This document shows, piece by piece, positions 35,125 through 37,073 of a stretch of DNA of 64,000 bases (positions are counted from its first letter, which is position 1; the number at the start of each line of letters is the position of its first letter). The DNA is from Ilyonectria destructans. Lineage: Eukaryota > Ascomycota > Sordariomycetes > Hypocreales > Nectriaceae. The stretch covers positions 2,294,001-2,358,000 of the forward strand of contig JAHEWK010000009.1 in NCBI GenBank assembly GCA_020740775.1, written 5' to 3'. The notes beneath the pieces are model-generated. The model was not told where the DNA came from, searched no databases, and saw only the letters and a program-made list of their open reading frames with translations. A program made the position numbers and the translations under genes.

Positions 35125-35171
35125 AAAAAAAAAGAATAAAAAAAGAAGCACCTTGAACAAGGTGTATTGCC
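35125..35171 (-). terminator. Pol III-type terminator after tRNA-Met
   Basis: Reading on the minus strand just after the tRNA discriminator base, the trailer contains a perfect hairpin (CACCTTG, two-base loop, CAAGGTG; 35149-35164). It is followed by runs of seven T (35138-35144) and nine T (35125-35133). T runs of this length are the standard stop signal for RNA polymerase III. This supports a Pol III transcript and an active tRNA gene. Confidence 0.75.
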
Positions 35172-35354
35172 TAGCAATTGCACGTTTCGATCGTGCGACT
35201 GGATTCGGAGTCAGTTGATGCTGATGGTCGATGTATGCTAGTATGAGACGTACCCTCCGGGTTATGAGCCCGGCTGATGCAAGTTAGTTTTCGAACCAAT
35301 GATTTGAGATGCTTGGAATGTAAACATACCGCGCTTCCACTGCGCCAAATTGCT
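35172..35354 (-). tRNA. Initiator tRNA-Met (CAT) split by two spliceosomal-type introns
   Basis: Minus strand, three tRNA segments: 35330-35354 (25 nt), 35254-35273 (20 nt) and 35172-35198 (27 nt). Joined, they make exactly 72 nt. Acceptor AGCAATT pairs with AATTGCT plus A73; positions 8-9 are TG; the D stem is GCGC/GCGC with loop AGTGGAA. The anticodon arm is CCGGG-CTCATAA-CCCGG, with the initiator's G:C pairs. The variable loop is AGGTC, and the T arm is GCACG-ATCGAAA-CGTGC. The A54-type T loop and CAT anticodon identify the initiator. Intron 1 (35274-35329, 56 bp, after position 26) starts GTATGT, has AACTAAC near its end and finishes CAG. Intron 2 (35199-35253, 55 bp, after position 46) starts GTACGT, has AACTGAC and finishes CAG. 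Neither is at the canonical 37/38 site. Box A (TGGCGCAGTGG, 35337-35347) and box B (GATCGAAAC, 35184-35192) are intact, about 144 bp apart. Confidence 0.9.
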
Positions 35355-37073
35355 TTCTTGGATGGCGTGTTCCGTGCTAAAGTTCCATTATCTCCGCCCG
35401 CGCTGTGCCCTAGCCCTGGGCGGAGACTGGACCCCATTTCTATGTGGGGTATAAAGCCTCACCACTATCGCCGCCATCCTCACATGTGGGATCCTCAGCA
35501 GACTTGCAGCCTCCACAAACAGTAGCCAGCCCTATCTATACTTGCACCATCACGTGGTCCCTTTTTTCATGATTGTATACAACAGCGAGGCACGAATCCT
35601 CAGACTCCTCACCCTAACACAATCGCCAGGGTCGTAGCACAAACAAGCCTTCAATTAGGTCTTATTGGCGGGAGTCTTCTTATGTAATACTTCGGTGGTG
35701 GTACTTGTGGCCTTGGATCGCTTCCACAGTGGTGAGGCAGCATTATCAAAGTAGGCGGTATACATATGTCCTTAAGGTATATCTTAAGAGTCGGAGGCGA
35801 GCTGCGATGACCCTTTAAATTAAGAGGTTGAGCTGAACGACATTAAAGCTAATGATGGTATTTGAGAATAATATATCGGGCTATATAGTTTTGTAACTCT
35901 AATACACCGTGTTTGTTGCATATGGCAACGTCGTGCTGATAGTTGACGTAAGGCCGCATCTCTATCTCTAGTAGTATAGTCTCGCAGAACTTGTATTTGT
36001 TACAGAAGTGCTGATTATAAATATAGTCCCCTAGAAGCAGCCAGATGCTGCGATTTCCCAAGCCAATACCAGATCACTGGTAATCATAAATACCGGCGAA
36101 GACAAAGTCAGCCATACTAAGGGGCTGGATCAAAACCCCAGTGTTTGACACCAACCAGGAGACTACCTGATCCTTTCTCCGAGGCTTCCGCGCTCAGTCT
36201 GTCATTTCCTACGGAATCCCATGGACCAGGTAGAACCGAGACAAGTATAATTGCGAAATGTTCCGAGTGGCTTCTTACCTTCATTGTCTGTCCTTTTCCC
36301 TAATGGGGCTTGATTAGCTACTTGATACTGGTGATTAACACCACCCCAACAGAAACAGCAAACTCGACGAGATACGCAGCTATCTATATACTGATCTTAT
36401 GCCACAGTAGTGCGCCATAGAGTGTCAAACATTTGTTATACTAAAGGTGGACTCTTCTCAATCACATAGATCAACATTAGTCTCTCCCTCTAGTGCTAAT
36501 AAATCATCCCTCCACCGGACCTTGCTCGTCTCGAAGGTGGCGCCTGGCATAACAAGGACTCGGCTCAGCATCCGGAATCAAATCATGTAATGCCTCCTTT
36601 GCACCAAGTCAAGCTTCTTAGCGAGCTCGAATCCCACATAACCAGCTTACGAAGCTCACAAAAGCACAGACGCTGAGAGTAGAGCAAAACCCCTGTCCTA
36701 CCCCTTGCTTTTAGCGTGTGTTTGAGGGCACTAATCACTTCTTGGAGTAGTGCGCAGCATCTCGGAAGCACCCTCGGAAAGAGAGGTCTGGACCTCTCGG
36801 GAACCTTGAGATAAACGCGTCACAGAGGAGGCTTCATTAGTAACCAAATGATTAAACTTACAAATCTCGGCTTTGTCAATCACCAAGTGAATTTATCAGC
36901 ATTGAACTATCAACGGTAATCTTAGTGGAGCCATATCGAAGCCTGACTGACTTGGCGTCAGTAAACAGCTGTTTAATTACTTGTTAAATGCTGCTCTTGT
37001 CAGAAAAGGGATCACTACCTCCTGTCTCTTAGGCTAGATCTCTTCTCTTCTACCGGTCCAAAACTCACTTGCA
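35355..37073. other. Gene-free region between tRNA and pirin gene
   Basis: About 1.7 kb without a supportable protein gene. The part next to 35354 is the tRNA leader. The remainder is AT-rich and unique, ending with the pirin promoter. No further tRNA arms were seen. Confidence 0.4.

Follow-up and report, generated by a model that had tools for sequence, protein, structure and literature searches.

Introns of nuclear tRNA genes lie at position 37/38, are cut by the tRNA splicing endonuclease and are taught as a single class. We know of no nuclear tRNA that is processed by the spliceosome. The introns described here, which interrupt initiator tRNA genes of the fungus Ilyonectria destructans, sit like the canonical ones in a tRNA precursor; they differ by their sites (26/27 and 46/47), by their mRNA splice signals and by the absence of a bulge-helix-bulge in 10 of 11 introns. 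Ectopic tRNA introns of archaea and red algae also lie outside 37/38, and several can occur in one tRNA, but they depend on the bulge-helix-bulge, the test that these 10 initiator introns fail. A bacterial initiator tRNA gene reportedly contains a self-splicing intron; the host tRNA is the same, whereas that intron is a ribozyme and the inserts studied here are only 53-60 nt long and without an Rfam match in the window (the whole 64,000-nt stretch of DNA that was analysed).

Introns of the U6 snRNA genes of Schizosaccharomyces and other fungi are alike in that a small RNA made by RNA polymerase III (Pol III), or in our case probably made by it, is split by a short intron that has GT-AG borders and a branch site. 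In 1990 Frendewey reportedly placed the B box of fission yeast U6 inside its intron. Unlike in U6, the host of the initiator introns is a tRNA, all seven copies found are split and a single gene holds up to two introns; they likely work in the same way without being members of the U6 group. The initiator intron sites lie outside the catalytic RNA of the spliceosome, so the explanation by reverse splicing into U6, as outlined in the excerpted literature, is not directly applicable to them. For U3 snoRNA genes, mRNA-type introns were described in the vast majority of the Pezizomycotina analysed, and the excerpted text names U3 and U6 as the sole small structured RNAs known to be often interrupted (PMC5832005). 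Fungal U3 introns and the initiator introns are both mRNA-type inserts in a structured non-coding RNA, although U3 is not a tRNA. LoBuglio is said to have described, in 1993, mRNA-type introns in fungal nuclear 18S rRNA genes; these are likewise spliceosomal-type introns in an RNA of the translation machinery, which unlike the initiator is a Pol I transcript and not a tRNA.

Excerpts of three publications (PMC3978253, PMC11782384, PMC8450103) treat tRNA introns as either endonuclease-cut or self-splicing and make no mention of a spliceosomal type; the excerpt of the last describes the non-canonical intron search of tRNAscan-SE 2.0 for archaeal tRNAs. In Aspergillus niger, according to the excerpted text, there are two tRNA-Met genes without introns, not called initiators, and 14 models with introns of >100 nt were removed (PMC6108506). 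In the open-licence literature, no title or abstract start among the matches listed reported spliceosomal introns in nuclear tRNAs. It is likely that such introns in nuclear tRNA genes are new.

The split initiator gene in the window

The window is part of contig C74 of I. destructans (Ascomycota; Sordariomycetes; Hypocreales; Nectriaceae), and HET, Fungal_trans and sugar transporter domains are found among its genes. The protein encoded at 33967-34656 matches one of I. destructans with 100% identity. The preliminary description of this DNA had proposed that three minus-strand segments of 25, 20 and 27 nt join to a perfect 72-nt initiator tRNA, with interruptions of 56 and 55 nt after tRNA positions 26 and 46. 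Direct reading of the minus strand from 35354 to 35172 reproduced this anatomy exactly, including all stems and the loops CTCATAA and ATCGAAA, and when the inserts were left out ARAGORN called the 72-nt joined exons as tRNA-Met(CAT) with every stem paired. The parts of the gene are as follows.

35330..35354, minus strand: initiator tRNA exon 1, 25 nt, tRNA positions 1-26 (5' strand of the acceptor stem, D arm and G26); the same in 7/7 copies found
35274..35329, minus strand: intron 1, 56 nt, after tRNA position 26, GTATGT...AACTAAC...CAG; an intron is present here in 7/7 copies found
35283..35289, minus strand: putative branch-site heptamer AACTAAC of intron 1; CTAAC or CTAAT lies equally far from the 3' splice site in 7/7 copies
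35254..35273, minus strand: initiator tRNA exon 2, 20 nt, positions 27-46 (anticodon arm CCGGG-CTCATAA-CCCGG plus AGG); the same in 7/7 copies found
35199..35253, minus strand: intron 2, 55 nt, after position 46, GTACGT...AACTGAC...CAG; present in 4/7 copies, precisely missing in three
35210..35216, minus strand: putative branch-site heptamer AACTGAC of intron 2, from the sequence
35172..35198, minus strand: initiator tRNA exon 3, 27 nt, positions 47-73 (T arm GCACG-ATCGAAA-CGTGC and 3' strand of the acceptor stem, AATTGCT)

In the raw window, ARAGORN found no tRNA and no Rfam family matched at the gathering score. Moving either junction by one base leaves the joined product unchanged, and the register chosen is the one with GT-AG borders.

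Pattern searches of the genome assembly (71.7 Mb in 74 contigs, possibly incomplete) found seven initiator genes, all of them interrupted: the window copy (C74), four copies in a 2.3-kb cluster on contig C1 (C1a-d), and one copy each named C3 and C12. Intron 1 is present in all seven and intron 2 in four, which gives 11 introns. In every copy the joined exons have the features of a eukaryotic cytosolic initiator, namely a 72-nt cloverleaf with the anticodon CAT, A1:T72, G29-31:C39-41, and A54 and A60 in the T loop; the discriminator is A73 in 7/7 copies and CCA is not encoded. The sequence A54-U55-C56 is given as an initiator feature in the excerpted text of PMC3978253. On the strength of the DNA we consider it highly probable that each of the seven initiator genes found is interrupted once or twice by an intron of the mRNA type, predicted to be removed by the spliceosome from a precursor likely made by Pol III.

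Promoter, terminator and trailer

The A and B boxes were identified by the Pol III consensus. The following elements surround or overlap the window copy.

35337..35347, minus strand: A box, TGGCGCAGTGG, in exon 1, by its sequence
35184..35192, minus strand: B box, GATCGAAAC, in exon 3, by its sequence
35287..35297, minus strand: B-box-like element, GGTTCGAAAAC, inside intron 1, agreeing at 8/9 informative positions and starting at precursor nt 58
35149..35164, minus strand: 3' trailer hairpin, between the end of the tRNA and the terminator
35138..35144, minus strand: run of seven T, by its sequence a likely Pol III terminator

All seven copies have these features of a type 2 Pol III gene (A box in exon 1, B box in exon 3, T run after the gene), and in each of them a run of at least five T starts 0-29 nt past the end of the tRNA. 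Intact boxes and T runs in 7/7 copies thus point to Pol III as the probable polymerase. The introns might instead be spliceosomal in a precursor made by Pol II, with the tRNA trimmed from a longer capped transcript; most spliceosomal introns do sit in Pol II transcripts, and the cap and the polymerase tail are established aids to U1. Such a precursor is highly improbable in our opinion, as the preserved boxes and the nearness of the T run to the tRNA end in every copy speak against it. A run of four T occurs in none of the 11 initiator introns, compared with 4 of the 18 predicted mRNA-type introns of the window (one of the 18 being intron 2 of the initiator gene), an observation that also speaks against Pol II but is weak alone. 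The idea that the lack of such runs is a special adaptation was dropped, the difference between 0/11 and 4/18 being too weak.

The introns widen the gap between the A and B boxes: the precursor of a one-intron copy has its B box start at nt 105-107 and that of a two-intron copy at nt 159-165, compared with nt 52 in an uninterrupted tRNA. In intron 1 of four of the seven copies a B-box-like element starts at nt 55-58, with a score of 8/9 in C74 and C12 and 7/9 in C1a and C1c; the best scores in C1b, C1d and C3 were 4-5/9. Among shuffled sequences 0.4% scored at least as high as GGTTCGAAAAC. A score of 7/9 was likewise seen in intron 2 of C1c. An intron-borne B box as a general rule was rejected, three of the seven introns 1 being without a match, and because the copies are related the element is only a lead.

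A trailer hairpin was seen in six of the seven initiator genes, with stems that differ and yet pair. Hairpins also occur in several trailers of Thr and Arg tRNAs, and the hairpin was rejected as an initiator-specific feature.

Comparison of the seven copies

The anticodon-arm core GGGCTCATAACCC had eight matches in the assembly. Seven of them are initiator tRNAs; the eighth (L015) is not. The D-arm core, with up to one mismatch allowed, gave seven matches, all exact and each adjoining one of the seven anticodon-arm initiator matches, and in every copy intron 1 parts the two cores. When the uninterrupted core from the D arm to the anticodon arm (29 fixed letters, up to three mismatches) was searched for, no match was found in the 71.7-Mb assembly; as far as these patterns reach, the assembly contains no intact copy and all seven genes are split. 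A BLAST-type search with the joined 72-mer scored three candidates, which were exon pieces of three copies only, and this search is weak evidence because four known copies were missed. Of 2006 candidates in the tRNA family search of the genome, 63 were scored. No match to the exon 1/5' splice-site pattern turned up in the viral and prokaryote genome contigs. A looser exon pattern gave 83 matches in viral and prokaryote collections (11 viral, 72 genomic), none of them a fungal initiator gene and one, in a viral contig, with the anticodon loop CTCATAA within 180 nt; these collections are uninformative on fungi.

Exons 1 and 2, 45 nt together, do not differ among the seven copies, although 30 of these letters (17 of 25 in exon 1, 13 of 20 in exon 2) belonged to the search patterns and 15 were free to vary, and the invariance is partly a product of the exact or near-exact exon patterns used for searching. 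The introns are much less alike: introns 1 (53-56 nt) are 57-87% identical among copies and introns 2 (53-60 nt) are 58-78% identical. Conserved exons beside diverged introns suggest that selection has held the joined RNA while the inserts drifted except in their splice signals.

Exon 3 occurs in two forms. One, with the T stem GCACG/CGTGC, goes together with intron 2 in C74, C1a, C1b and C1c, and the other, with the T stem GTACG/CGTAT, is found without intron 2 in C1d, C3 and C12. The two T stems differ at 50:64 (C-G to T-A) and at 49:65 (G-C to G-T), so that the pairing of the T arm is kept. In these last three copies intron 2 is exactly missing and the flanking exon letters are continuous, which confirms the borders of intron 2 without recourse to any model. 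The precise presence or absence of intron 2 and the compensated T-stem pair suggest selection on the joined tRNA. When the two joined forms were aligned with a yeast initiator, 63 of 63 pair cells were standard, nine pairs were changed on both sides and at least 51 of the 72 columns were invariant.

Intron 1 of C12 is 87% identical to that of C1c, and its exon 3 has the form of C1d and C3; this mixed character suggests exchange between initiator copies. The flank upstream of the window gene (35355-35600) resembles that of C1a (L099 upstream of 4637), with a local score of 47 over 400 nt compared with 12.5-23.5 for other pairs, and the copies C74 and C1a likely share a recent origin, to judge by these flanks. 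Each precursor has a stronger fold than the mature tRNA fold by itself, which counts against the proposed maturation. The minimum-energy folds keep all four tRNA arms in 6/7 copies, and in that of the C12 precursor the T arm is lost.

It could be argued that the seven genes are silent or decaying and that the initiator comes from an intronless gene, either unassembled or too diverged for our searches; the assembly in 74 contigs may indeed be incomplete, and the BLAST-type and family searches scored a limited number of candidates. This seems highly improbable to us. Decay does not fit with 45 exon letters (30 of them search patterns) that are invariant while the introns differ by 13-43%, with a T-stem change that was compensated or with a T run after every copy, and the uninterrupted core was unmatched even at three mismatches. 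The anatomy of the split genes and its conservation can be read directly in the DNA. As every initiator gene found is interrupted, I. destructans would need splicing to initiate translation.

ARAGORN, applied to the unspliced initiator copies, reported a gene in five of them, under the labels Lys, Arg, Asp, Val or stop tRNA, and none in the remaining two. An annotation gap is thereby exposed, all seven split initiator genes being missed or mislabelled. Three of them (L099 5441-6932) are called tRNA-Lys(CTT), tRNA-Arg(TCT) and a stop tRNA when introns are allowed, which is an annotation trap for fungal genomes.

Intron class and maturation

All 11 introns have GT-AG borders. The 5' sites are GTATGT (five), GTAAGT (two), GTACGT (three) and GTAAGC (one), and the introns end in CAG or TAG. 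The 5' sites were compared with predicted mRNA introns of the window and with the fungal consensus. A CTRAY branch site lies 9-13 nt before the intron end in 10/11 introns, the exception being intron 2 of C1b, which has no branch site at the usual distance. These signals were combined in one test that demands GTANGY at the start, YAG at the end and CTRAY 9-13 nt before that end. The limits of this test were chosen after the introns had been seen, and it was passed by 10 of the 11 initiator introns; intron 2 of C1b failed, with no branch site in range. When every stretch of 50-60 nt on both strands of the window was subjected to it, 9 of 1,406,680 passed. Two of these nine are the inserts of the initiator gene, one overlaps the gene on the opposite strand and five appear among the predicted mRNA introns; in shuffled windows the average was 0.4 passes on one strand. 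An ab initio scan of the window looked between open frames for introns with a GTRNGY start and CTRAY near the end; it yielded 18 candidates (intron 2 of the initiator gene among them) with a median length of 58 nt and 9-20 nt from branch to 3' end. In all seven introns 1 the distance from branch to 3' end is equal and falls inside this range.

The preliminary description had seen mRNA-type signals in both inserts and had taken them for spliceosomal introns rather than introns of the tRNA endonuclease. The first point is borne out by their place among the nine passing stretches. The second has support at the level of sequence: the seven paralogues hold 11 introns that share GT, branch site and AG, their exons 1 and 2 are invariant beside diverged introns, one precise difference in presence or absence is seen, and the T-stem change is compensated.

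Could the likeness to mRNA introns be superficial, the inserts being ectopic tRNA-type introns that the tRNA splicing endonuclease cuts at a bulge-helix-bulge, in the manner of archaea and some algae? This genome does have predicted introns after position 37 or 38, and ectopic introns of the tRNA type are known in archaea according to the excerpted literature. In the copies found, the inserts lie at 26/27 and 46/47 and not at the canonical nuclear site 37/38. The bulge-helix-bulge test was failed by 10 of the 11 introns, including both window introns; the one that passed, intron 2 of C1c, can form a central helix of 4 bp with 4/5 flank pairs. In the control, for which introns 1 alone were shuffled, 2 of 1400 shuffled introns 1 passed. 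The pairing probability across the intron borders was 0.00-0.08 in the four two-intron copies and 0.45-0.75 in the three one-intron copies, in which the strict test failed too. By the fold and pairing tests together the bulge-helix-bulge reading was rejected for 10/11 introns, and with GT, branch site and AG as the features that the introns have in common, cutting by the endonuclease appears extremely improbable. No ribozyme core of a group I or II self-splicing intron was found, the inserts being only 53-60 nt long and the window having no Rfam match at the gathering score.

We infer from the arrangement of these genes how a spliceosome-dependent initiator might be made, and the polymerase, the spliceosome, the order of the steps and the dependence of initiation on splicing are all proposed in this sense. 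The A box in exon 1 and the B box in exon 3 would drive Pol III transcription of the split gene, which would end at the T run. Recognition of the GTATGT, GTAAGT or GTACGT start and of the CTRAY branch site would fall to U1 and U2. Lariat splicing would then remove intron 1 and, where present, intron 2, the exons being joined either ahead of end trimming and CCA addition or together with them, and modification would complete a standard 72-nt eukaryotic initiator. The middle exon is only 20 nt long, which is demanding for the spliceosome, and an uncapped transcript would be a further difficulty.

We think it probable, judging from the genes as they stand, that these introns represent a further class of nuclear tRNA intron removed by the spliceosome, that the entire supply of initiator, and with it cytosolic initiation, depends on the splicing of Pol III transcripts, and that intron 1 of four of the seven copies may, like the U6 intron, provide an additional B box, here with the spacing usual for a tRNA. 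Confirmation would mean that an essential Pol III-made tRNA can be matured by the spliceosome and that the start tRNA of a eukaryote is tied to mRNA splicing. A direct loop would follow, with splicing making the tRNA needed for making splicing proteins, and the pace of protein synthesis could be set by how much splicing the cell can perform. The genes would also offer a natural system in which to study the search of U1 and U2 for introns in Pol III transcripts that lack a cap, the handling of a 20-nt exon flanked by two introns, and a possible limitation of translation by splicing capacity.

Other non-coding RNA genes of the genome were inspected for similar interruptions. There was none in the 47 5S rRNA candidates scored (of 3874) or in the one SRP RNA gene found. 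Among the 23 and 7 genomic matches of two contiguous anticodon-arm patterns there was no elongator tRNA-Met gene, and this gene may hold an intron too. Of three U6 genes found, two (L024 and L025) are intronless and the third has an intron of the mRNA type:

L026 1501-1670 (C1:6743874-6744043), minus strand: U6 snRNA gene with a 66-nt intron, GTAAGC...TACTAAC...CAG

The perfect B box inside this intron is like the one reported for fission yeast U6 introns, and the gene provides a precedent, in the same genome, for mRNA-type introns in Pol III transcripts. An mRNA-type intron, GTAAGC...GCTAACCC...CAG, lies close to the 5' end in each of the four U3 snoRNA genes found (L100-L103), immediately before the Rfam U3 match. 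The match runs over the intron, with its first 16 positions poorly matched and the usual U3 start upstream.

The initiator cluster on contig C1 adjoins an array of tRNA-Ser(GCT) genes (L099 1604-3875; C1 near 4490600-4492900), and in four of the five an intron of 41-50 nt is predicted, placed after position 37 or 38.
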